In this document: positions 22,088 through 36,133 of the stretch, piece after piece
Layout: every line of letters starts with the position of its first letter
Numbering within the stretch: position 1 is the stretch's first letter
Origin: Spirochaetales bacterium
Lineage (GTDB): Bacteria; Spirochaetota; Spirochaetia; DSM-27196; SLST01
Assembly (NCBI GenBank): GCA_007127335.1
Contig: SKZO01000094.1
Coordinates: forward strand, 1-36,133
Direction: 5' to 3'
Length of the DNA: 36,133 nt
The notes under the pieces: generated by a model
What the model was told of the DNA's origin: nothing
What the model saw: the letters and a program-made list of their open reading frames with translations, nothing else
The model's database searches: none
Program-made: the position numbers and the translations under genes

Positions 22088-22356
22088 TTGAGAAAGACAT
22101 CACCGTGACCAACAGGGCCGGGATTCACGCGCGCCCGGCAGCCATGATCGTTCAGACGGCGAGCCGGTTCGAGTCCAAGATCATGCTCGGCAAGGACAAC
22201 GAAGAGATCAACGCCAAGTCGATCATGGGCATCATCACGCTCGGTGCCGGCTACGATACCGTTCTGAAGATGCGGGTTGACGGGCCCGACGAGCAGGAGG
22301 CTGCCGATGCGCTCGCCGCGTTGTTCGAGAACCGTTTCCAGGAAGAGTCTGCGTAA
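22084..22356 (+). CDS. ptsH: Phosphocarrier protein HPr
   Basis: The protein is 90 residues. It has His15 in AGIHARPA (phosphorylated by enzyme I) and Ser46 in NAKSIMGIITLGA (phosphorylated by HprK), so both regulatory sites are intact. The start overlaps the hprK stop as ATGA. No PTS permease or enzyme I is in this window, so the role in this neighbourhood may be regulatory. Confidence 0.96.
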   Translation: MIEKDITVTNRAGIHARPAAMIVQTASRFESKIMLGKDNEEINAKSIMGIITLGAGYDTVLKMRVDGPDEQEAADALAALFENRFQEESA

Positions 22357-22918
22357 TTCTGTCCTGCTGATCCCGTTCATACTAGTCGTCCCGGTCGCCG
22401 TGCCCGCCCAGATCGAACACGAGACGCAGGTGATCGCGCTGCGGGACTACTTCGAGGTGAGCATCTCCGTCAACGGCGCCGATCCGGATCTTCTCTTCGG
22501 CAATCTCGCTGAAGGGCTGACCGCCCGGCTCGAGTACGCGGTACGTGTGTCGCATCCACGCAATCCACCGCTCAGTCTCTTCGGATCGCGGCTGCTCAGC
22601 GAGTATCGGGTCATCTACCATGCCCGGTGGGACCCGTTTCGGGACCGCTATACGATCAGCACGCAGGACGGTGGTCTGTTCACCTTTCGCGATGAAGCCG
22701 CGCTGTGGCGATTCTTCTTCACCCTGCCGCACTACCGAATCCCGTGGCAGGGGATTGGTGCGGGCGATCCCGCGACGCCCTCGCGGTACCAGGTTGACAC
22801 GCAGGTTGTCTACGAGCCGGTCGTCTTCGTGCCCGGCCTGAGTATCCTGTCGGTGTTCCTTCCGCACGCCCGTCAGTCGAGCCTGTGGGAGCGGAGCTAC
22901 CTGGAGGAGCCTCGATGA
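22307..22918 (+). CDS. DUF4390 family secreted/membrane-associated protein upstream of ntrY
   Basis: The protein is 203 residues. It has an N-terminal basic stretch and hydrophobic segment VLLIPFILVVPVAVPAQ that looks like a signal peptide, then a predicted beta-rich domain (IEHETQVIALRDYFEVSISVNG, RLEYAVRVSHPR, FTFRDEAALWRFFFTLPHYRIP). DUF4390 genes commonly stand just before an NtrY-type kinase, as here. ATG 22307 has GGAGG six bases upstream, inside ptsH, giving a 50-base overlap with that gene. A CTG at 22349 would give a cleaner signal peptide. A periplasmic role in sensing for NtrY is inference. Confidence 0.65.
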   Translation: MRSPRCSRTVSRKSLRNSVLLIPFILVVPVAVPAQIEHETQVIALRDYFEVSISVNGADPDLLFGNLAEGLTARLEYAVRVSHPRNPPLSLFGSRLLSEYRVIYHARWDPFRDRYTISTQDGGLFTFRDEAALWRFFFTLPHYRIPWQGIGAGDPATPSRYQVDTQVVYEPVVFVPGLSILSVFLPHARQSSLWERSYLEEPR

Positions 22919-24741
22919 CGCCGCGACGAATGCCCGGCACGTCCGTGACCGGGTTGCTCAGTCTGATCGTGCTCTACCTCGTCCTCATCGTGCTGGTCCT
23001 TGTCTTCGCTCAGCAGGTACTGACCGACCTCTCCTTCACCGGGAGCAGCGCGACCGTCGTGGTTCTCGTTCTCGCGACGATGTTTCCTCTCTTCCTTGGC
23101 GCGTTGATCGTCTACAATGTCGTGCGTCTCGTCCATGACCGGGCCGTCAGGCGTCCGGGTGCGAGGCTCAAGTCACGGTTGTTGACCTTCTTCCTGGTCA
23201 TTGTCCTTCTCGCGAGTGTCCCCCAGGGGATCCTCTCGGTGAGCTTCATCCGCACGGCGATTCGCGCGTGGTTCTCGGAGGACACCGGCGAGGCCATTCG
23301 CGGTGGCCAGCAGATCGCGCTCTCGTTCTTCACCCAGCTCGAACGTGATCTCACGGCCTTTGCCTCGAGTCCCTGGGCGATGAGCCTGATGGACGGCGTC
23401 GAACGTCAGCCGGGGCGTGTGTGGGAGCGCGTTCAGGGGGTGAATCCAACACTCGACTCCTTTCAGGTCTTTGGACCGGCCTTTCAGGAGCTGTATGCCG
23501 GGGGAGCTGCCGAGCTCCATCTCACCCCCCTGCAGGCAGCCGCCGCGAGAGAAGGTCAGGTTGCCCGCGAGAGCGCGGGGGGTGTGAGCTTCCTCCGGGT
23601 GCGCCTGAGCTATTTCCCCGATGTCCGCTCTCCCGGCACCACGATCGGGGAGACCAGCCTGCCGGGAGCCTACACGATCATCATGGCCTCCCGTCTGCCG
23701 TCAGGCTTCGACGAGGCGGCGGGCCGTCTGACCGAGTCGCTCGAATTCTTCATTCAGCTCGACCGTTTCCAGGACAACTTCGTGACTGCGATCAGCCTCT
23801 TCTACGGGTTCTTCTCGGTCCCGCTCGTCCTGCTGAGCCTGCTCGTCAGCTTCCTCCTCAGCGACGAGATCATGAGGCCGATCGTGAGCCTCGAGGATGC
23901 GACGAGGCGCGTGGCGGACGGAGATTTCTCCACCCGCATCCTCGCCCGTCGTGGCGACGAGTTGTCGCTGCTTGTCGATTCGTTCAACCGGATGGTCGGC
24001 GAGCTCGAGCGCACCCGCGAGAAGATCATCCAGGCAGAGAAGATCGCGGCCTGGCAGGAGATCGCGCAGCGGCTCGCTCACGAAGTCAAGAACCCGCTGA
24101 CCCCTATTCGTCTTGCGGCTGAGCGCACGCTGCGCAGGTACCAGGACGGAAGCGAGAGTTTCGGTGAAGTGCTCGAAACATCGGTTCGCGCGATCGTGGG
24201 CGAGGTCGACAACCTGAGTGCCCTGCTCTCCGAGTTCCGGGAGTTCTCGCGGCTCCCGGCTCCGAAGATGGAAGCCGTCGCGCTCCACTCGGTGATCGGT
24301 GAGGTCGTTGCGACCTATTCGACGTGCCCGTCGGTGAGAGTCGAGACCGACGGTGTGTCTGAGGATCTCACTGTGTTCGCCGATCCGGGGCAGATTCGCC
24401 AGTTGGTGACGAACCTCGTCAAGAATGCGCTCGAGGCCGTTGGTGAACAGGGGAATGTGTCGGTCCATGTCGATCCCGTGAAGAAGGGTTCGAGCACCTT
24501 CTGCAGAATTCGCGTGGAGGATGACGGGCCGGGCATCCCCCGGGAGCAGCAGAGCAGGATCTTCGATCCGTATGTGACGACCAAGCGAAAAGGAACCGGG
24601 CTCGGGCTGGCTATTGTACAGCGCATCGTATTCGATCACCATGGGCAGATCTGGTTCGAAACGCAGCCGGGAGTGGGTACCACCTTCTACGTGGACCTGC
24701 CGGCGGCCGAGGCTGCACGCGACCGGAAAGGACTTCTATGA
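22915..24741 (+). CDS. ntrY: NtrY-like membrane sensor histidine kinase
   Basis: The protein is 608 residues. Transmembrane helices lie at about 12-33, 46-70 and 88-108, followed by an extracytoplasmic sensor region (about 115-290) and another helix (about 293-315). A HAMP domain (RRVADGDFSTRI), the HisKA box with phospho-acceptor His389 (AHEVKNPLTPIRL) and an HATPase domain with NLVKNALEAVG, DDGPGIP and GTGLGLAIV complete the NtrY plan. It overlaps the DUF4390 gene and ntrX by four bases each. The signal sensed is not known. Nitrogen is only the historic association. Confidence 0.88.
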   Translation: MTPRRMPGTSVTGLLSLIVLYLVLIVLVLVFAQQVLTDLSFTGSSATVVVLVLATMFPLFLGALIVYNVVRLVHDRAVRRPGARLKSRLLTFFLVIVLLASVPQGILSVSFIRTAIRAWFSEDTGEAIRGGQQIALSFFTQLERDLTAFASSPWAMSLMDGVERQPGRVWERVQGVNPTLDSFQVFGPAFQELYAGGAAELHLTPLQAAAAREGQVARESAGGVSFLRVRLSYFPDVRSPGTTIGETSLPGAYTIIMASRLPSGFDEAAGRLTESLEFFIQLDRFQDNFVTAISLFYGFFSVPLVLLSLLVSFLLSDEIMRPIVSLEDATRRVADGDFSTRILARRGDELSLLVDSFNRMVGELERTREKIIQAEKIAAWQEIAQRLAHEVKNPLTPIRLAAERTLRRYQDGSESFGEVLETSVRAIVGEVDNLSALLSEFREFSRLPAPKMEAVALHSVIGEVVATYSTCPSVRVETDGVSEDLTVFADPGQIRQLVTNLVKNALEAVGEQGNVSVHVDPVKKGSSTFCRIRVEDDGPGIPREQQSRIFDPYVTTKRKGTGLGLAIVQRIVFDHHGQIWFETQPGVGTTFYVDLPAAEAARDRKGLL

Positions 24742-26099
24742 GCAGCGTTCTGGTAATCGACGACGAGGCGGGCATTCGCGATGTGCTGAAAGAGATCCTC
24801 AGCGACGAAGGGTACGTCGTCTTCACTGCCGAGGATGGGATCGAGGGGCTTGAGCTCGTTCGCCACGAGCGGATCGATCTCGTTCTGCTGGACGTCTGGC
24901 TTCCGAACATGGGCGGCATGGACGTACTCAAGCACCTGAAGAGTGAGAAGCCGGAGATCGAAGTTATCGTGATATCAGGCCACGGGAACATAGACCTCGC
25001 GGTGAAGGCGGTCAAGCTCGGCGCGTTCGATTTTCTCGAGAAGCCTCTGAGCCTCGATCGTGTGACCACGATCACACGCAATGCGCTCGAGATGGAGGAG
25101 CTCAAACGCGAGAACCGGACACTCAGGAACCGGCTCGTGAACCGCGACGAGATGATCGGCGAGAGCAAGCCGATGAAGGAGGTCCAGGCGCTCATTCGAC
25201 AGAGCGCGCCCAGCGATTCGCGTGTCATGATCTTTGGCGAGAACGGTACCGGCAAGGAGCTCGTCGCGCGCGAGATCCATCGGCGCAGCCTGCGCAGCGA
25301 AGGGCCCTTCGTGGAGGTGAACTGCGCGGCGATTCCCGACACACTGATCGAGAGTGAGTTATTCGGGCACGAGAAAGGGGCATTCACGAGCGCGATCGCC
25401 CGGAGAAAGGGGAAGTTCGAGACGGCTCACCGGGGCACGCTCTTCCTGGACGAGATTGCCGATATGTCGCTGAGCGCACAGGCGAAGGTGCTCCGTGTCA
25501 TCCAGGAGATGCGCTTCGAACGTGTGGGAGGCGAGGAGTCGATCGGTGTGGATGTGCGAGTCATTGCCGCGACGAACAAGGACATCAGGGAGGAGGTGGA
25601 GTCGCGTCGGTTCCGCGAGGATCTCTACTTCCGTCTCAACGTCGTCTGGATTCACGTCCCGGCACTCCGTGAACGGCGCGATGACATCCCGCTGCTCGCC
25701 GAGTACTACCTGCAGAAGTTCGTCGGTGAAGAGGAGCAGACGCGCCGATTCGACGCTTCGGCCGTGTCGCGAATGAAGGAATATGAGTGGCCGGGCAACG
25801 TCAGGGAATTGAAAAACTTCGTGGAACGGGTTACTATCATGTCGGACGAGGAGGTGCTCACCCGGGACCTCGTGGACTTCTTCCTGGGCGAGCGAAGCGT
25901 CGGGCCGACCGATCCAGTGCTCGAAGAGTTCGGCGACATGGGGCTCAACGAGGCACGCGACGCGTTTGAGCGTCGCTACATCGAGCACAGCCTGCGCGAG
26001 AACGACTACAACGTCACCCGAACGGCGACCGAGCTCGGTATCTACCCGAGCAACCTCCACGCGAAGATCAAGAAGCACGGGATCCAGGTGGAGCGATGA
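24738..26099 (+). CDS. ntrX: NtrX-like sigma-54-dependent response regulator
   Basis: The protein is 453 residues. The receiver domain has Asp8-Asp9 and phospho-acceptor Asp52 (LVLLDVWLP). The AAA+ domain has Walker A GENGTGKE (168-175), the sigma-54 contact loop reading GAFTSA (about 214-219) and Walker B GTLFLDEIADM. The Fis-type helix-turn-helix lies at the end (YNVTRTATELGIYPSNLHAKIKKHG). It should activate RpoN promoters when phosphorylated by NtrY. The contact loop differs from the consensus GAFTGA at the fifth position but keeps the critical threonine. ATGA overlaps occur at both ends. Confidence 0.93.
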   Translation: MSSVLVIDDEAGIRDVLKEILSDEGYVVFTAEDGIEGLELVRHERIDLVLLDVWLPNMGGMDVLKHLKSEKPEIEVIVISGHGNIDLAVKAVKLGAFDFLEKPLSLDRVTTITRNALEMEELKRENRTLRNRLVNRDEMIGESKPMKEVQALIRQSAPSDSRVMIFGENGTGKELVAREIHRRSLRSEGPFVEVNCAAIPDTLIESELFGHEKGAFTSAIARRKGKFETAHRGTLFLDEIADMSLSAQAKVLRVIQEMRFERVGGEESIGVDVRVIAATNKDIREEVESRRFREDLYFRLNVVWIHVPALRERRDDIPLLAEYYLQKFVGEEEQTRRFDASAVSRMKEYEWPGNVRELKNFVERVTIMSDEEVLTRDLVDFFLGERSVGPTDPVLEEFGDMGLNEARDAFERRYIEHSLRENDYNVTRTATELGIYPSNLHAKIKKHGIQVER

Positions 26100-28087: not shown

Positions 28088-29292
28088 TGCTCAGTGTTCT
28101 GGTTGCCGACAAGCTCTCTCCCGCGGCCGTCGACGCACTCTCCAGGCTTGGTGCGGTGGTGCGCACGGAGCCCGATCTCGACGGTGAAGCGCTGGTCGCC
28201 GCGATAGGCGAGGCAGAGGTGCTGGTGGTGAGGTCGACGAAGGTCCCACGGGCGGTGATCGAGGCCGGCACCGAGCTCTCGCTGATCGTCCGGGCCGGCG
28301 CCGGTGTCAACACGATCGACATCGCGGCGGCGAGCGAGTACGGCGTCTCCGTCGCGAACTGTCCCGGGCGGAATACCGCCGCCGTCGCGGAGCTCGCGAT
28401 TGGTCTGATGATCGCGGCCGACAGGCGGATTCCCGATGCCACTGCCCATCTGCGCGCCGGGGAGTGGAAGAAGAAGGAGTACGGCAAGGCGTACGGTCTT
28501 CTCGGGCGCACGTGCGGTATCGTCGGGTTCGGGTCGATCGGGCGGGCCGTCGCCGTCCGCGCGAAGGCGCTCGGCATGCGGGTCGTCGCCTGGTCGCGCA
28601 GCCTCACGGCGGAGTCGGCTGAAGCGGCGGGGGTGGAGCGGTGCGAGCGGCTGGTCGAGCTTGCCGGCGAGAGCGACGTGGTGAGCGTGCATCTCGCCGT
28701 TGCCGAACAGACGCGGACTCTGATCGGGGCGGAGTTCTTCGCGGCAATGCGCGAAGGTGCGATCTTCGTCAACACGTCGCGAGGTGAGATCGTCGACCAG
28801 CAGGCGCTCGCCGCCGCCGTACGCGACCGCGGCGTCAAGGCCGCGCTCGACGTCTATGGCGACGAGCCATCCCGGGGCGAGGCTCCCTTCGATGCGAGCG
28901 AGTTCGCCCGCGAGCTCGCCGCGGCTACCCCGCATATAGGTGCGTCTACCGAGCAGGCCGCCGAGGCGATCGCCGCCGAAGTCGTCCGGGTCGTGGAGAC
29001 CTACGTGAAGACCGGCAAACCGGTGAACGCCGTCAACATACGAGCCCGCACCGAGCAGGACGTGAGCCTCGTCGTCCGCCACTACAACCGCGTGGGAGTA
29101 CTCGCGGGTGTGCTCGACGAGCTGAAGGACGCAGGAGTCAACGTCGAGGAAATGGAGAACACGATCTTCCAGGGCGGCGCCACCGCGAGCTGCGCGCTCA
29201 AACTCGACCGTGCGCCCGATGTCGAGCGTCTGCGGCGCATCCGCAGCGGCCGCGACATCATTCAGGTGATGCTGAAGGAGCGCGCGCCCTGA
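28084..29292 (+). CDS. serA: D-3-phosphoglycerate dehydrogenase
   Basis: The 402-residue protein catalyses the first step of serine synthesis. The substrate domain starts VLVADKLSPAAVDAL. The NAD domain has GIVGFGSIGRAVAVRAKALG. The catalytic Arg is in VNTSRGEIVD, the Glu in DVYGDEPS and the His in TPHIGAST. A C-terminal ACT domain (about 325-400, VSLVVRHYNRVGVLAGVLDEL) suggests serine or amino-acid feedback. ATG 28084 overlaps the DUF1499 stop; ATG 28087 is the next codon. It is the last gene of the run and its end overlaps uvrC (minus) by 35 bases. Confidence 0.92.
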   Translation: MMLSVLVADKLSPAAVDALSRLGAVVRTEPDLDGEALVAAIGEAEVLVVRSTKVPRAVIEAGTELSLIVRAGAGVNTIDIAAASEYGVSVANCPGRNTAAVAELAIGLMIAADRRIPDATAHLRAGEWKKKEYGKAYGLLGRTCGIVGFGSIGRAVAVRAKALGMRVVAWSRSLTAESAEAAGVERCERLVELAGESDVVSVHLAVAEQTRTLIGAEFFAAMREGAIFVNTSRGEIVDQQALAAAVRDRGVKAALDVYGDEPSRGEAPFDASEFARELAAATPHIGASTEQAAEAIAAEVVRVVETYVKTGKPVNAVNIRARTEQDVSLVVRHYNRVGVLAGVLDELKDAGVNVEEMENTIFQGGATASCALKLDRAPDVERLRRIRSGRDIIQVMLKERAP

Positions 29293-31093
29293 CCGCCTCC
29301 TTGATCTCGAGCGCCTGCGCGTACGGGATCTTCGCCTCCGCGGCGATCGATTCGGTGTCCGCCGCCGCGAGTGCCTCGAGGCTGGCGAACCTGGCGAGCA
29401 GGCGTCGGCTCCGCTGCGGTCCGATCCCGGGTATCGACTGGAGCGTGGCGAGCGTGAGGTCGCCGCTCTGCAGCCCGGCGCGGAAGGTCGTCGCGAAGCG
29501 GTGCGCCTCGTCGCGCACCGCCTGCAGAATCCGCAGCGGATCCGAGCCTTCGGGCAGTCGGATGGGTTGCGACCCGCCCGGCAGGAAGAGCTCCTCCTTC
29601 GCCTTGGCGAGCCCCACGACCGGGATGTCGAGCTCGAGTGCTTCGAGGACCGAGACGACCGCGCTCACCTGGCCCTTGCCGCCGTCGATCAGGATGAGGT
29701 CGGGGAGCGGAGCCTCCTCGTTGGCCAGCCGGGTGTAGCGGCGAGCGGTCACCTCGCGCATCGCCGCGAAATCGTCGATCGAGCCGTCGAGCGTCTTCAT
29801 GTGAAACCGCCGGTAACCGGCCTTGTCCGGGCGACCGTTGCGGAAGCTCACGAGTGAGGCGACCGGGTGCTTCCCGTCGACGTGAGCGATGTCGAATCCC
29901 TCGATGCGCAGGGGCAATTGCGGCAACTCGAGCACCTTCTGCAGCTCCTCCAGTCCCGGGATATTGCCCTGCTCACGCACGCGCTTGTCCAGATCGCGCC
30001 GCGCGTTCTCCATCGCGAGGTTCGTCACCGAGACGTCGCGCGAGCTTTCCGGCGTCAGGACGTCGACCTCCGCGTCGAGCTCGTCCCGGAAGAACCGCGC
30101 CAGATCGCCGACAATGGTCTCGCCGATCGGAGCTCCGGTCCCGATGATGAGCCTCTCCGGTGCAACTCCCGCGGTCGTGTAGTACTGCGTCACGAACTGC
30201 GGGATCAGTTCGTCCGGCTCGCCGTACACCTCGACGTGGTAGATCTCGCTCCCGAGCATGCGGCCGCCTCTCATATGGAAGAGCGCCAGTGAAGCGAGAC
30301 CGTCGCGCTCGTGGACGGCGAGGTAGTCGCGTACGTCAGGGTCGAAGTCGACGACCTGCTGCTCCTCCTGGGTGCCACGGATCGCTGCGATCGTGTCGCG
30401 CAGGTCCGCGGCGCGTTCGAACTTCAGGTCGGCGACGGCGGCCTGCATCTCGCGCTCGAGATCGGCGAGTAGAGCGTCGGCCTCTCCGGAGAGGAGCTTG
30501 CGAATTCCCTCGATCCGCTTTCCGTACTCGTCATGGTCGGTCTTGCCCGCGCAGACCGCTGCACACCGCCCGATGTGGTAGTAGAGGCAGGGGTGTGCAC
30601 GTTTTTTGATCGGACCCCGGCACTTTCGCAGCGGAAAGAGTTTCTCGATGACCTCCAGGTACCGGTCGATGTGGTGGACGTTCGCATACGGTCCGAAGTA
30701 GGAACTCCCGTCCTCGACGATCCGACGCGTCCGGAAGACGCGCGGGTATTCCTCGTTCGTGATCCTGATGACCGGGTAGGTCTTCCCGTCCTTGAGGTTG
30801 ATATTGTACCGAGGAGCGTGTTCCTTGATGAGGTTGTTCTCGAGCAGCAGCGCCTCATACTCGCTGCGGCACACGATGGTGTCGATCGTGCGAACCTTCT
30901 TCATGAGGACGATTGTCTTGACGTCGTTGTCCTTCGCGAAGTAGGAACGCACCCGGCTGCGCAGGTGCTTTGCCTTGCCGACGTAGAGGATCGCGTCGTC
31001 GGCGTCCTTCATCAGGTAGACGCCCGGTCGGGTGGGCAGATGCGCCGCCGACTCCCGCGGGCTCAGGTGCGCGGATATTGATGGTTTCTCCAT
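29258..31093 (-). CDS. uvrC: UvrABC system protein C, excinuclease
   Basis: The protein is 611 residues. The N-terminal GIY-YIG nuclease domain has PGVYLMKDADDAILYVGKA. A Cys-rich stretch (CRGPIKKRAHPCLYYHIGRCAAVC), a UvrB-binding helix pair (FERAADLRDTI), the RNase H-like nuclease (FDIAHVDGK, LILIDGGKGQ) and tandem helix-hairpin-helix (SIPGIGPQRSRRLLARF) follow. UvrC makes both incisions in nucleotide excision repair. ATG 31093 is set by the conserved start. No Shine-Dalgarno sequence is present. The frame stays open beyond the start but encodes nothing recognisable there. Confidence 0.97.
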   Translation of the reverse strand: MEKPSISAHLSPRESAAHLPTRPGVYLMKDADDAILYVGKAKHLRSRVRSYFAKDNDVKTIVLMKKVRTIDTIVCRSEYEALLLENNLIKEHAPRYNINLKDGKTYPVIRITNEEYPRVFRTRRIVEDGSSYFGPYANVHHIDRYLEVIEKLFPLRKCRGPIKKRAHPCLYYHIGRCAAVCAGKTDHDEYGKRIEGIRKLLSGEADALLADLEREMQAAVADLKFERAADLRDTIAAIRGTQEEQQVVDFDPDVRDYLAVHERDGLASLALFHMRGGRMLGSEIYHVEVYGEPDELIPQFVTQYYTTAGVAPERLIIGTGAPIGETIVGDLARFFRDELDAEVDVLTPESSRDVSVTNLAMENARRDLDKRVREQGNIPGLEELQKVLELPQLPLRIEGFDIAHVDGKHPVASLVSFRNGRPDKAGYRRFHMKTLDGSIDDFAAMREVTARRYTRLANEEAPLPDLILIDGGKGQVSAVVSVLEALELDIPVVGLAKAKEELFLPGGSQPIRLPEGSDPLRILQAVRDEAHRFATTFRAGLQSGDLTLATLQSIPGIGPQRSRRLLARFASLEALAAADTESIAAEAKIPYAQALEIKEAVRARAPSASPE

Positions 31094-31100
31094 ACGTGCC

Positions 31101-31130
31101 GATATAAAGGATACCAAGGCTCGATGAGAA
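31101..31130 (-). promoter_or_regulatory. Candidate uvrC promoter
   Basis: On the minus strand TTCTCA, 18 bases, TATATC, ending seven bases before the uvrC ATG. It would overlap the start of the divergent LamG gene. The -35 is weak (4 of 6). I see no LexA-type palindrome here. Confidence 0.35.
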
Positions 31131-32665
31131 AGCGAACCGCCGTGACCCAGAGCTCGAGAATCCCGGCGCGCCTGCTCGCGCTCGGTCTGGCGCTCATGCT
31201 CCAGGCAGCCGCTCCCGGTGTGCCCGCAGCCTCCGAACGGACGATCACGCTCGGGACCGATGACGGGTGGCGAGCCCTGCGCGACGAGCCGGGAGCGCGC
31301 CTCGAGGCCGGACGCCGGGGGTATCTCGATCTGACGCTCGACCGTTTCCGCTACGAGGCCGGACCCACGACCGAGCTCCTCCTCCGTTTCGACGAGACGC
31401 CGCTTCGTGACGCCGCGGCACGGCACGACGTCGTTGGCGGAGCTCAGGAGCTCACGACCACCGCTCACCGAACCGGGTCCGGCGCCCTTCTCGTCGACGG
31501 TCCCGAGGATCGCATCGAGCTCGTGCCTCGCGCGGGATCGGCGTTCGTGCCCGGCCACCAGTGGGCCGACTTCACGTTCGAGTTCTGGTTCTACCCCGTC
31601 GCCCTCAATGAAAGTGGCGCGATTCTGCGGTGGCACGCGCGGGAGGGCGCCGAGCACGGGTTCCGTGTGCAGGAGGTCTCCATCGAGATCGCGCGCGGAA
31701 CGACGCGTGCGCGGTTCGAGAACTTCTTCGTGCGCCCGGACGGGCAGCCGATCTCCTTCGAGCTCGAGGGTCCCCGGCGTCTGATACCGCGGACCTGGGC
31801 CCACCACATGGTGCGCTTCAACGGCAGGACCGGGCTGATCGAGTACCTCGTCGACGGCGTCCCGTCGGATCTCACGCATGTCTCCGAGAGCCGTCGCCAT
31901 GACGGCACCGTCTTCTACCCGCGTATCGCGGCCCTGCGTGGAGATGGCCTCGTCGTCGCCGACGGGTTTGTGGGAGCGGTCGACGAGCTGCGCATCGAGT
32001 CCCGCTTCGTCGAGGATCCGGCAGATCACGAGTACCCTCCCCGCGGCGAGACGTTCTCCACCGACTACCTCGATCTGGGCTCTCCCGGTGCCAGGCTGAC
32101 CCGGATCGACGCGATCTACGATGCCCCGCTGCTCAGCGACGTCTTTCTCTCCTACCGACTCGTCGATCTGCGTGATGATCACTCGCCTCGCGAAGACCGC
32201 GAAGACTGGGTGCCGGTCATCCCCGGGGAGACCGTTTTCGGCGCCCGAGGCCGCTTCCTTCAGCTTCGTCTCGAGCTCTATCCTGACACCCGTGAAGGCC
32301 TGTCTCCAAGGCTTTCGCAGATCGTCATCGCGTACGAACCGGCCGACCCTCCCCTGCCGCCCACCGGTCTGCGGGCCATCCCGCATGACGGGGCGGTCAC
32401 GCTCGAGTGGGCCGAGACACGCGAGCCGGATATCGCCGGCTACCTGGTGTACTATGGGGACCAGTCGGGTCGATACTTCGGCACCGACGGCTCGTTGGGG
32501 CCGTCGCCTGTCGATGTTGGTCGCGCCACCTCCGTCACGATCGACGGTCTGGCGAACGGCACGCTCTACTTCTTCGCGGTGCAGGCGTACGGCTCGTTCG
32601 AGGATCACACGTCCGCTGAGTTCTCGCGCGAAGTTGCCGCTCGACCCGCGAAGGTCTACCGATGA
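31124..32665 (+). CDS. Secreted LamG/FnIII domain protein
   Basis: The protein is 513 residues. The signal peptide is residues 1 to about 38 (basic start, LLALGLALMLQAA core, PAAS end). A concanavalin/LamG-like domain (about 60-300) shows FTFEFWFYP, GAILRWHAREG, TWAHHMVRFNGRTGLIEYLVDG and VGAVDELRI, all typical of laminin-G-3 folds. A C-terminal fibronectin type III domain (about 408-505) shows PPTGLRAIPHDGAVTLEWA, DIAGYLVYYG and LANGTLYFFAVQAY. It is probably periplasmic or surface-located and may bind glycans or proteins. It overlaps the TPR gene by four bases and lies 30 bases from divergent uvrC. Confidence 0.82.
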   Translation: MRKRTAVTQSSRIPARLLALGLALMLQAAAPGVPAASERTITLGTDDGWRALRDEPGARLEAGRRGYLDLTLDRFRYEAGPTTELLLRFDETPLRDAAARHDVVGGAQELTTTAHRTGSGALLVDGPEDRIELVPRAGSAFVPGHQWADFTFEFWFYPVALNESGAILRWHAREGAEHGFRVQEVSIEIARGTTRARFENFFVRPDGQPISFELEGPRRLIPRTWAHHMVRFNGRTGLIEYLVDGVPSDLTHVSESRRHDGTVFYPRIAALRGDGLVVADGFVGAVDELRIESRFVEDPADHEYPPRGETFSTDYLDLGSPGARLTRIDAIYDAPLLSDVFLSYRLVDLRDDHSPREDREDWVPVIPGETVFGARGRFLQLRLELYPDTREGLSPRLSQIVIAYEPADPPLPPTGLRAIPHDGAVTLEWAETREPDIAGYLVYYGDQSGRYFGTDGSLGPSPVDVGRATSVTIDGLANGTLYFFAVQAYGSFEDHTSAEFSREVAARPAKVYR

Positions 32666-35382
32666 TCAGTGAACGAGTTCAGGAGCTGCTGATCCGCGCG
32701 CGGAACGCGTTTCGGCTGCGGGACTACGAGACGGCGGATCATCTCGTCGACGACATGCTCGACGAGTATCCCGAATCGATTGCCGGCCACATCCTCAAGG
32801 GTATCATCCTCGGTCGTACCGGGCGGAACCAGCAGGCGATACGGGTCTTTCGCCGCGCGCTCGAGCTCGATCCGGTGAACGCGGAAGCGTTCAACAACAT
32901 CGCCGTCAGCCTGCGCCAGGAAGGGAAGCTCCGGGAGGCGTTGCGGGCGGTACAGAAGGCCGAGGATCTCTTTGGCGGCCGGGCGGACATTCTCTACAAC
33001 AAGGGGAATATCCTCAAGGACCTCGGGCAGATCAACGAGGCGATGGCCACATATCTCAAGGCGATCGAAGCGGATGATCGGTACGTGCTCGCCTACAACA
33101 ACCTGGGCACGCTCTATCAGGGCCGCGGCGACCTCAACAGGGCGGTTGAGACCTTCAGCGTTGGTCTCGCGATCGACCCGAATCACCCTACGCTTCGGTA
33201 CAACCTGGGGCTCGCGTACGAGGAGCAGGGCCGACTCGAGGAGGCGCAGGGCGAGTACGAGCGGTCGCTCAAGTCGCGGCCCGGATGGGGGGAGGCGCTC
33301 AACAACCTTGGAATCGTCTTCCAGAAGCAGGAGCGTTATCAGGAGGCCGAACGCACCTTTCAGGAGATTCTGCACGTCAACCGGCACGATCCGCGGGCGA
33401 ACAACAACCTCGCGACCAACTATGCGCTTCAGGGCCGCACCCGGGACGCCATGCAGTTCTACCGGCAGGCGCTGCAGGCAGACCCGTCGTACTCGCGCGC
33501 CGCCGGCAACCTTGGCCAGCTCATCGACCACCAGCGGGACATGGGCGATGCCGTCGAGGAGCTGCAACAGCTTGCTGAGCTCGACAGCGACAACATAGAG
33601 CTCCAGTACCGGCTCGCACTCGCGCTCTCGCGGACCGACCGCCACGAAGCAGCCGAGCGCGTGCTGCTGCGCGTTCTCACACTGGATCCGCGCCACCTGG
33701 AGGCGACCCGGCTCCTCGCGGACATCTATCTCAGATCAGGCCAGGACGAGAAGGCGGCGAAGTGTTACAGCCGCCTGAAGACGATCAACGCCGACTTCTA
33801 CGACCATCACCTGGACCGCGCCCGGGTGTTCCAGCGTCGCGGTGATCCGGCAACCGCCCTGCAGGAGATCGAGACCTACCTCGACTCGAAGGCCGGGGAT
33901 CTCGACGGGCTGCTCTCCAAGGCCTCTATCCTGGTGGATCTGGGCCGACGCGACGAGGCGCTCGAGATGCTCGAGGAGCTGCGCAAGCTCTATCCCGGAG
34001 ATGGTCGCATCATCGCCGCTGTTGCGAGTGCTCACCAGCGCGCCGGAGACCGCGAAGAGGCGATTCGGGCGGTTGACGAGCTGATCAACCTCCAGGGAAG
34101 CCGTGCGACGCCGGAGGACATCGAGGCTCTCAACGAGAGTCTGGAGCTCTACGAGCAGGCGGTCGACGCCTTTGCAGAGGAGTATCAGCTGAGCTGGGAT
34201 CGTACACTGACCCGCCTTGGCGAGCTCACGACTGAAGAGGAGGAGGACGAGGACCAGGAGCTCGCCGTAGACGAACAGGTCAGCCTGGATGAGGACTCGA
34301 TTCCCATTCTCAGCTTCGGCGGCGAGGAGCTGATCGAGCCCGACGAGTGGGACGTCCAGGTCCGGGACGAGGATGACGAGGAAGACGATGAGTACCTCGG
34401 GGTCGAGCCCCCCGAAGAGCTCGCACCGTCGCTCGTCACGCTCCCGGACGAACAGCATCGGCGCGGAGGCGAGCAGTTCGCCGAAGCGCTTCGATCTCCG
34501 TACCGCGACGGCGGGCTTGCTGCCCCGCGTCCCGCGCCGCAGCCGCAGCCGCAGCCGCCGGCGGAGCTTCCGGCGGAGCTTCCGGCGGAGCTTCCGCCGG
34601 ACGAACCGGCGGCGACGTATGCCGAACCGCCACCGGCCTACCCGCTCCCCGGGTCTCCGCCGCACGCAGCCCCCTCGGACCAGCCGCCCTCGCCGGCGGA
34701 TGCCGCGGCCGGACCCATCCCGGCGCGACCGGCTCCGCCGGAGTCCCATCCACCGCCGGGCCCGGATCAGCAGGCCCCCGATGCGGAACCCGAGGTTCCG
34801 CTCGCGGAGGTCCCCGACGAGTTCGAGATCATCGAAGACGGCGACTTCTCCCCGGAGGAGGAACCGGAAATCGAGTTCGGCGAGCCCGATACCGATGACA
34901 TCGAGCAGGAGCCGGTTCCGACCATCGATGATCTCCTTGGGGAGACCGAAGGAGTCGATGAGCTCGAGGAGGAACCGACGCCTGAGCCGACCGTCGACCT
35001 TCCGGCCGACGCAGAGCCCTCTCCCCTCGATCCCGCGGGCCTGCTCGACTACCTCTCCGATATGACCGGCGCGCTGCCGCCTGAGAAGCGCCGAGAGTAC
35101 ATGGCAAGCGAGGAGCGGCTGAAGCTCGAGTACCTGCGCGCGCGGCTGGCCGGTCGGCCGGGTCTCCATCGGGGTGTGAGTCGTTACGCGCGCGACGCAG
35201 ACGGTGCCTCCGTTCCGCTGACACCCAAGCGACTGAGTGATACCCTGAGCTACATCGGTCACATCGCTACCTATCACCCGGATGCCGGCATTGGAACGGC
35301 GCTCCAGCACCGCGTCGGCTCTGTGCTTGCACAGTTGCGTCAGATGCGGAACAATCCAGTCTCCGGAGATTCTCCTTCATGA
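32662..35382 (+). CDS. TPR-repeat protein with acidic/proline-rich region
   Basis: The protein is 906 residues. Residues 1 to about 480 hold around a dozen consecutive TPR units, with helices such as AFNNIAVSLRQEGKLREAL, AYNNLGTLYQGRGDLNRAV and ALNNLGIVFQKQERYQEAE. Residues about 520-580 are very acidic, 610-700 are Pro/Ala-rich with PAEL repeats, and 700-790 are again acidic. A helical, charged C-terminal segment (about 795-906) is probably folded (LLDYLSDMTGALPPEKRREY). No signal peptide is seen, so it is probably a cytoplasmic scaffold. It is translationally coupled to the LamG gene upstream and the HDOD gene downstream. Confidence 0.88.
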   Translation: MISERVQELLIRARNAFRLRDYETADHLVDDMLDEYPESIAGHILKGIILGRTGRNQQAIRVFRRALELDPVNAEAFNNIAVSLRQEGKLREALRAVQKAEDLFGGRADILYNKGNILKDLGQINEAMATYLKAIEADDRYVLAYNNLGTLYQGRGDLNRAVETFSVGLAIDPNHPTLRYNLGLAYEEQGRLEEAQGEYERSLKSRPGWGEALNNLGIVFQKQERYQEAERTFQEILHVNRHDPRANNNLATNYALQGRTRDAMQFYRQALQADPSYSRAAGNLGQLIDHQRDMGDAVEELQQLAELDSDNIELQYRLALALSRTDRHEAAERVLLRVLTLDPRHLEATRLLADIYLRSGQDEKAAKCYSRLKTINADFYDHHLDRARVFQRRGDPATALQEIETYLDSKAGDLDGLLSKASILVDLGRRDEALEMLEELRKLYPGDGRIIAAVASAHQRAGDREEAIRAVDELINLQGSRATPEDIEALNESLELYEQAVDAFAEEYQLSWDRTLTRLGELTTEEEEDEDQELAVDEQVSLDEDSIPILSFGGEELIEPDEWDVQVRDEDDEEDDEYLGVEPPEELAPSLVTLPDEQHRRGGEQFAEALRSPYRDGGLAAPRPAPQPQPQPPAELPAELPAELPPDEPAATYAEPPPAYPLPGSPPHAAPSDQPPSPADAAAGPIPARPAPPESHPPPGPDQQAPDAEPEVPLAEVPDEFEIIEDGDFSPEEEPEIEFGEPDTDDIEQEPVPTIDDLLGETEGVDELEEEPTPEPTVDLPADAEPSPLDPAGLLDYLSDMTGALPPEKRREYMASEERLKLEYLRARLAGRPGLHRGVSRYARDADGASVPLTPKRLSDTLSYIGHIATYHPDAGIGTALQHRVGSVLAQLRQMRNNPVSGDSPS
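34540..34593 (+). repeat. Compound minisatellite in the TPR gene
   Basis: CAGCCG occurs three times (34540-34557), followed by three perfect copies of the 12-mer CCGGCGGAGCTT (34558-34593). They encode Gln-Pro and Pro-Ala-Glu-Leu repeats. Both units keep the reading frame. Confidence 0.9.
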
Positions 35383-36133
35383 GCAGCGACACGCATCTGC
35401 AGAAGATCGAGAAGTACATCAACACGATGCCCGCCCTTCCCGTGACGGTTACGAAGGTCGTCGAGATCGCGAACAACCCGGCTACCTCCCCGGTCGACCT
35501 GAACCAGGTGATCAGTCTCGATCCGGTTCTCATGGCCAAGGTACTCAAGCTGATCAACTCCGCGTACTACGGCGTGTCGACGAAGGTCAACTCGCTCGTG
35601 CGCGCGATCATCATGCTCGGCATCAATACCGTGAAGAATCTCGCGCTCAGCTCCGCCGTGATCGATACGCTCGGGCGCAAGAACCAGTTTCGCGCGCTCG
35701 ATCCGCAGGCGTTCTGGAGGCACTCGCTCGGGGTGGGAGTCACGTCGAAGCTCATCGCCCGAAAGCGCGGAATCGATTCGTCGAAGCTCGAGGAGTACTT
35801 CATCGCCGGGCTGCTGCACGGGATCGGGAAGATACCGCTCAACAACGTCCTCAGCGATCAGTACATCGAGGCGATGAGTACCGCCGACCGTCAGAAGATT
35901 CCGCTCTGTGCCGCCGAGCGCAAGGTGTTCGGGTTCGATCACACCTTCGTTGGGGTGCGCATTGGCGAAGCGTGGAATCTCGGCAATGCCATCCTCGACA
36001 CGATCAAGTACCAGGTGCGACCCGCCGAGTACCAGGGCCAGTACTCGGATATCGTGAACACGACCCATGCGGCGATCTACTTCGTCACCATCGCCGAGAT
36101 CGGCTTCTCGGGCGACCGATACCCCGAGCGGGC
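35379..36133 (+). CDS. HDOD domain protein (3' end outside window)
   Basis: 251 codons are visible from ATG 35379, which overlaps the TPR stop (ATGA). The HDOD start IEKYINTMPALPVTVTKVVEIANNP is followed by SLDPVLMAKVLKLINSAYYG, LVRAIIMLGINTVKNLALS and FWRHSLGVGVTSKLIA. The HD-type motif reads AGLLHGIGKI, so the catalytic aspartate of HD phosphohydrolases is a glycine. HDOD proteins are generally non-enzymatic signalling modules, for example in chemotaxis or motility control, and this fits. The C-terminal part is beyond the window. Confidence 0.88.
   Translation, partial: MSSDTHLQKIEKYINTMPALPVTVTKVVEIANNPATSPVDLNQVISLDPVLMAKVLKLINSAYYGVSTKVNSLVRAIIMLGINTVKNLALSSAVIDTLGRKNQFRALDPQAFWRHSLGVGVTSKLIARKRGIDSSKLEEYFIAGLLHGIGKIPLNNVLSDQYIEAMSTADRQKIPLCAAERKVFGFDHTFVGVRIGEAWNLGNAILDTIKYQVRPAEYQGQYSDIVNTTHAAIYFVTIAEIGFSGDRYPER

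Follow-up and report, generated by a model that had tools for sequence, protein, structure and literature searches.

The window, i.e., the whole stretch of DNA that was analyzed, is 36,133 nucleotides long and represents an entire contig. Three genes on the forward strand occupy its end: a gene for a protein with LamG and FnIII domains (hereafter LamG; 31124..32665, 513 aa), a gene for a TPR protein (32662..35382, 906 aa) and a HDOD gene (35379..36133) that runs off the contig end at position 36133 and is incomplete, with 251 aa visible. Four-base ATGA overlaps on the same strand link LamG with TPR (32662..32665) and TPR with HDOD (35379..35382), so the gene limits and overlaps described in an earlier sequence-only reading of this DNA are borne out. 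On account of the overlaps, the products may be made in a fixed proportion, as that reading proposed. The divergent neighbour on the other side is uvrC (29258..31093, reverse strand), a syntenic anchor outside the module, preceded by genes for HPr kinase, a histidine kinase, a sigma-54 response regulator, LexA and the delta subunit of DNA polymerase III. Of these, the histidine kinase and the response regulator (22885-26099) together make a possible flagellar regulator, and a 213-aa protein without a Pfam match is encoded between HPr kinase and histidine kinase (22277-22918). A promoter-like element (31078..31105, forward strand) precedes the LamG gene and consists of TTGATG (31078-31083) and TGCCGATAT (31097-31105), the first base of its CCGAT being placed 25 bp ahead of the start codon.

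The first product was previously claimed to be exported, in agreement with a putative signal peptide (MRKRTAVTQSSRIPARLLALGLALMLQAAAPGVPAA, residues ~1-36, judged by eye) that is followed by a jelly roll (80-304) and an FN3 domain (412-491). Pfam matches were obtained for Laminin_G_3 at residues 148-294 (31.8 bits, cut-off 27.6) and for fn3 at residues 412-491 (28.9 bits, cut-off 25). Past the signal helix, the AlphaFold model (mean pLDDT 88.9, 38 sequences) is almost all beta, and a structural search with the predicted structure assigned residues ~80-304 to the ConA-like jelly rolls, with Z scores of 17.9-20.5 and 2.3-3.3 Å over 180-202 residues among the best 50 matches; the whole-model Foldseek ranking was set aside, as it consisted mostly of matches with rmsd ~20 Å at TM ~0.3. 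LamG and/or FN3 were also recognized by Pfam, partly below cut-off, in Borrelia-type, T. pallidum-sized and Brachyspira-sized proteins as well as in one protein from another class, where the names Borrelia-type, Brachyspira-sized and Treponema are our own guesses at the genus. We take the Borrelia-type locus to be BB0457/0458/0459, while the LamG protein of the T. pallidum-sized genome is presumably TP0263. Exact-word searches of open papers retrieved no study on the LamG family, TP0263 was absent from the open papers among the matches listed, and BB0458 appears in a table of outer-membrane predictions in the accessible part of PMC4939628.

No signal peptide was seen in the TPR protein, which consists of a TPR array (residues ~1-480), an acidic and proline-rich linker (~520-790) and a conserved C-terminal part (~790-895), and matches many TPR families above the Pfam cut-off. 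Its identification as FlcA was rejected, since the protein scored 54.1 bits with NF047371, far below the cut-off of 300 bits, and the match was confined to the TPRs. The HDOD assignment is clear (residues 17-214, 182.9 bits against the Pfam cut-off of 22.9), and the protein does read HGIG in place of HDIG, as noticed earlier; in addition, where most relatives have HH further downstream it carries YQ, so that the window HDOD has no intact HD metal site. Among 24 aligned HDODs, HG replaces HD in four, namely the window protein and three relatives of its family, and all four have also lost the HH pair. The claim of a non-catalytic HDOD therefore holds for these four, but not for the other 20, which keep HD, and the loss of the metal site looks, from the alignment, like a trait of the window's family.

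The conservation of the arrangement was assessed in 71 Spirochaetia LamG loci, 68 of them with at least 300 nt downstream. A TPR gene directly follows LamG in 63 of the 68, the exceptions being two loci from distant lineages (L084, L085), two Treponema-type loci (L185, L187) and L196. In the last, stop-to-stop ORFs that were too long masked an adjoining TPR gene, and the absence is an artefact of ORF boundaries. As L185 reads LamG-deoC and L186 reads LamG-TPR-deoC, the TPR gene was probably lost in L185; the stretch between LamG and deoC in this T. pallidum-sized genome (L185, 7329-9627) is devoid of TPR. The genome of L187 (G279) has a TPR match elsewhere. Of 55 relatives, 34 have a four-base overlap (ATGA or GTGA) where TPR probably starts, a count in which 2 of the 55 were cut at a contig end and 8 of 42 flagged cases were dropped, with TPR starting elsewhere. 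An HDOD gene lies beyond TPR in 22 of the 42 loci with room for it, and the same 22 carry a gene for an MBL-fold protein, while both are missing from the remaining 20, the Borrelia-type and Treponema g40 loci among them. Within the window's family, the tail can be read in three relatives (L035, L036, L038); in all of them the MBL gene comes next after HDOD, and it probably follows the window HDOD beyond position 36133 as well. In other classes, TPR follows LamG in 3 of 20 loci, two of them from Brachyspira-sized genomes, and is not adjacent in the other 17. Taken together, LamG-TPR is an old pair and HDOD-MBL a variable tail. The three genes do stand side by side in relatives, and the notion of a conserved, coupled and envelope-related module survives to that extent, but the trio as a single unit was rejected.

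For the co-distribution with flagellar genes, a LamG profile built from 33 proteins was searched against 296 Spirochaetia genomes with at least 85% completeness. LamG was matched in 215 and FliG_C in 220 of them; comparing the two lists by eye gave 208 genomes with both, 12 with FliG only, 7 with LamG only and 69 with neither. The FliG-only genomes are G047 (FliG match below cut-off, no FlhA and no flagellin), G054 and G108 (both f17), seven genomes of g27 in which FliG is weak, G069 and G096, while the LamG-only set is made up of six weak matches at E > 1e-11 and of G129, an 87%-complete genome that carries flagellin and a partial FlhA. On a UvrC tree of 30 genomes, whose deep forks are weak, LamG-less genomes fall in three places (f10+f11+f16+f24; f17; f19/g27), plus G069. 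The large group f10+f11+f16+f24 forms a single clade (support 100/100) from which f17 and g27 are separate, and g61, a relative of g27 (fork 93/94), has LamG and flagellin.

Flagellin_N was searched in a panel of 44 chosen genomes, including four of the seven from g27, and was found in none of the 18 from the three LamG-less clades and in all 26 others. FlcA exceeded its cut-off in 17 of the 44 and in none of these 18; G069 and G096 passed it, as did, among genomes of other classes, G400 alone. FlhA (42 genomes searched) was present in 3/3 f17 and 7/7 g27 genomes and absent from all 16 searched in the large clade, so that LamG follows the filament and the collar, and not the export apparatus. 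Treating f17 and g27 as ordinary flagellated exceptions was rejected, since FlhA is present but Flagellin_N was found in 0/7 tested. An injectisome origin of their FlhA was also dropped, given its neighbours. In both G056 (L215) and G054 (L216), it lies near a FlhF-like GTPase of the SRP54 type and near a sigma factor, and in G056 also near proteins of the FlhB and FliR families. These two lineages, with flagellar export genes and neither Flagellin_N, FlcA nor LamG, might have flagella without flagellin or mere remnants.

Within Spirochaetia, LamG is thus present with flagellin and absent without it, with the exceptions of G069 and G096. It is kept in very small genomes of 0.9-1.1 Mb (G165, G114). 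In the whole phylum, LamG was matched in 143 of 150 genomes and FliG in 148. Outside the class, G338, G343, G344, G360 and G380 have FliG and flagellin and no LamG match; some of their relatives match only weakly, so that divergence and absence of LamG are not separable there. The link rests on three loss events, and the control genes followed were few (uvrC, lexA, holA, HPr and HPr kinase); as an association, it is well supported. The sequence-only reading had proposed a process of the cell envelope or surface, of which the envelope stands, while this co-distribution with FliG, flagellin and FlcA makes the periplasmic flagellum more likely than the surface in general.

The site beside uvrC shows what remains where LamG is missing. 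The order lexA-holA-uvrC persists in 9 of the 10 genomes of the large flagella-less clade in the UvrC panel (all but G116) as well as in G164 (f17), and LamG was not found across uvrC in any of these ten. Neither LamG, TPR, HDOD nor MBL occurs in the stretches read at those loci, which differ in length. HPr and its kinase are at the locus in 8 of the 9 (not in G094); the histidine kinase and sigma-54 regulator, which separate HPr from LexA in many flagellated relatives, are missing from this place in those 8, and also in G059, which has LamG. The neighbours of LamG that could be named are uvrC, holA, lexA, pheST, deoC and rpiB, with no flagellar gene among them, many further neighbours, mostly in other classes, not having been identified. 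Several candidates were discarded: an ORF of G047, considered as a diverged LamG beside uvrC in a flagella-less genome, matches spore photoproduct lyase; look-alikes in G048, G099 and G053 were dismissed by eye; and the 157-aa protein that is conserved next to LamG in other classes belongs to the RpiB family and is uninformative.

Of the two exceptions, G069 (Treponema-type, with flagellin and FlcA) is the only single-contig genome among the 12 with FliG only. Of TPR it retains the back half, interrupted by a stop within the matching part. Prophage genes for a minor head protein, portal, terminase and endolysin (L211, 8923-16247) occupy the place taken in the sister genome G088 by LamG and the front half of TPR, which makes this locus a natural knockout. 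In G096, the TPR match reaches within two bases of a contig end.

A conserved TGCCGATA box is located ~20-30 bp before the LamG start. TGCCGAT occurs upstream of 39 of the 66 LamG genes of Spirochaetia other than Borrelia (200 dinucleotide shuffles: mean 0.83, maximum 4) and CCGAT upstream of 53 (shuffle mean 14.7, maximum 24), while in 50 aligned upstream regions, chosen for CCGA, the motif is preceded by T in 43 and by G in 42, with a T 20 bases upstream in 42. Across the phylum, CCGAT is found in 55 of 89 LamG regions, against a plain-shuffle expectation of 9.4; as a composition control, 80 of 454 regions of 150 nt ahead of neighbouring genes, whose starts are rough, contain it. Outside Spirochaetia, it precedes 2 of 20 LamG genes. 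The box as a by-product of uvrC adjacency was rejected, as CCGAT lies at or near the same distance in L047, L050, L186 and L187, without adjacent uvrC. The sigma-28 consensus is TAAA-N15-GCCGATAA; the -10-like box of LamG matches its -10 part, and the -35 region reads TT[GT][AT], not TAAA. According to the available part of PMC9481697, the mapped sigma-28 promoter of T. denticola flaB2 has CCGATAA at -10 and TTAA at -35, and the LamG box resembles this -10 element. The geometry TTGATG-N17-GATANT also fits, so sigma-70 is possible too. CCGAT was present upstream of 7 of 30 Spirochaetia flagellins, i.e., on some flagellins only. It is absent upstream in three Borrelia-type LamG loci, and Borrelia is described as having no sigma-28 in the portion of PMC11607428 consulted.

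With moderate confidence, we favour LamG as a periplasmic flagellar accessory protein and the TPR protein as its cytoplasmic partner, with HDOD and MBL as an added tail, because LamG is present in nearly all the flagellated genomes of the class that were searched and missing from the flagellin-less ones tested. LamG would then be a late flagellar product made from a sigma-28-type promoter and exported by Sec into the periplasm, where its lectin-like jelly roll and FN3 domain could attach to the periplasmic flagellum or to the site where the flagellum meets peptidoglycan or the collar. The TPR protein would stay in the cytoplasm, most likely as an assembly or adaptor scaffold, while HDOD and the MBL-fold protein may form a signalling tail in some lineages. 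The promoter class, the binding target, the role of TPR, any direct contact and the mode of action are what we infer from these data. A bolder version, which we offer only tentatively, makes LamG a missing structural part of the flagellum (an unassigned collar density or a link between filament and peptidoglycan) that arose early in the phylum, with TPR working across the membrane; if true, this part has been kept in Borrelia-type and Treponema pallidum-sized genomes.

It is also possible, though rather unlikely, that LamG and TPR have a role in the helical shape of the cell or the integrity of its envelope, and that they disappeared along with the spiral form rather than with the flagella as such. 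The largest of the clades without LamG (f10+f11+f16+f24) has no flagella, the accessible part of a Pasteur preprint (PMC12236494) connects the loss of endoflagellar genes with non-spiral species, and LamG-like jelly rolls such as domain 4 of AbnA can bind glycans, while the sigma-28-like box favours a flagellar regulon. As shape and flagella are hard to separate in spirochetes, the two explanations are weakly distinguished.

LamG and FN3 domains are frequent in secreted glycan-binding proteins. LamG could accordingly be secreted to act at the surface or to bind nutrients, its absence from flagella-less lineages being a coincidence of genome change, and LamG-less lineages do lack further genes at the locus; we regard this as improbable, however, given the retention of LamG in very small genomes (0.9-1.1 Mb), its presence in 208 of the 220 FliG-positive genomes of the class and the coincidence of three separate absences with the absence of flagellin. 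Least probable of all is the original view of the trio as a signalling cassette, in which HDOD and TPR would sense a signal in the cytoplasm and LamG would be the output, for although HDOD and MBL come after TPR in 22 of 42 loci, the other 20 do without HDOD, and the metal-site residues are lost in the window's clade.

A periplasmic flagellar role for LamG thus remains the preferred reading. Periplasmic flagella define spirochetes, and LamG, which is phylum-wide, exported, follows flagellin in its class and has a common genomic address beside uvrC, is a named candidate for deletion and imaging, with G069 as a natural loss in one Treponema genome.

No named system matching LamG-TPR(-HDOD) was found here, as in the sequence-only reading. 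The ConA/LamG jelly-roll lectin domains have the same fold as residues ~80-304 (for instance, AbnA domain 4, 5hon: Z 19.1, 2.6 Å over 181 residues), but at 8-16% identity, and the fold also occurs in the binding domains of clostridial toxins and in their non-toxic partners, so that sharing it shows neither function nor toxin character. SadB of Pseudomonas is, like the third product, an HDOD protein. It acts upstream of flagellar control but belongs to another phylum and converges on the sigma factor AlgU, as far as the accessible part of PMC6543031 goes.

Close parallels come from spirochetes themselves. FlcA, FlcB, FlcC, FlcD/BB0236 and FlbB, some of which have a signal peptide or TPRs, take part in the assembly of the periplasmic flagellar collar of Borrelia burgdorferi (PMC8609358, PMC11750108, both available in part). 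FlcA has the same distribution as LamG in the Spirochaetia panel except in G069 and G096, which have FlcA only; over-cut-off FlcA is nevertheless located away from LamG-TPR in flagellated panel genomes, no collar protein is described as LamG/FnIII and the word LamG is absent from the accessible portions of both papers, one of which reports that large collar densities are still unassigned (PMC11750108). The same profiling logic, i.e., retention in spiral and absence in non-spiral spirochetes, was used in the preprint PMC12236494, cited here from its accessible part, for the DUF2225 family OG8135 (LEPBIa0550), whose mutation impairs motility in L. biflexa and whose domain differs from that of LamG. 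The words LamG and laminin do not appear in its text; for a second family, OG9070, which may be the LamG family, that part offers no more than an accession (WP_013945094.1) and a locus tag. About 60% of the families with this spiral/non-spiral profile are reported there as motility-related, a share in keeping with our confidence in the flagellar link of LamG.
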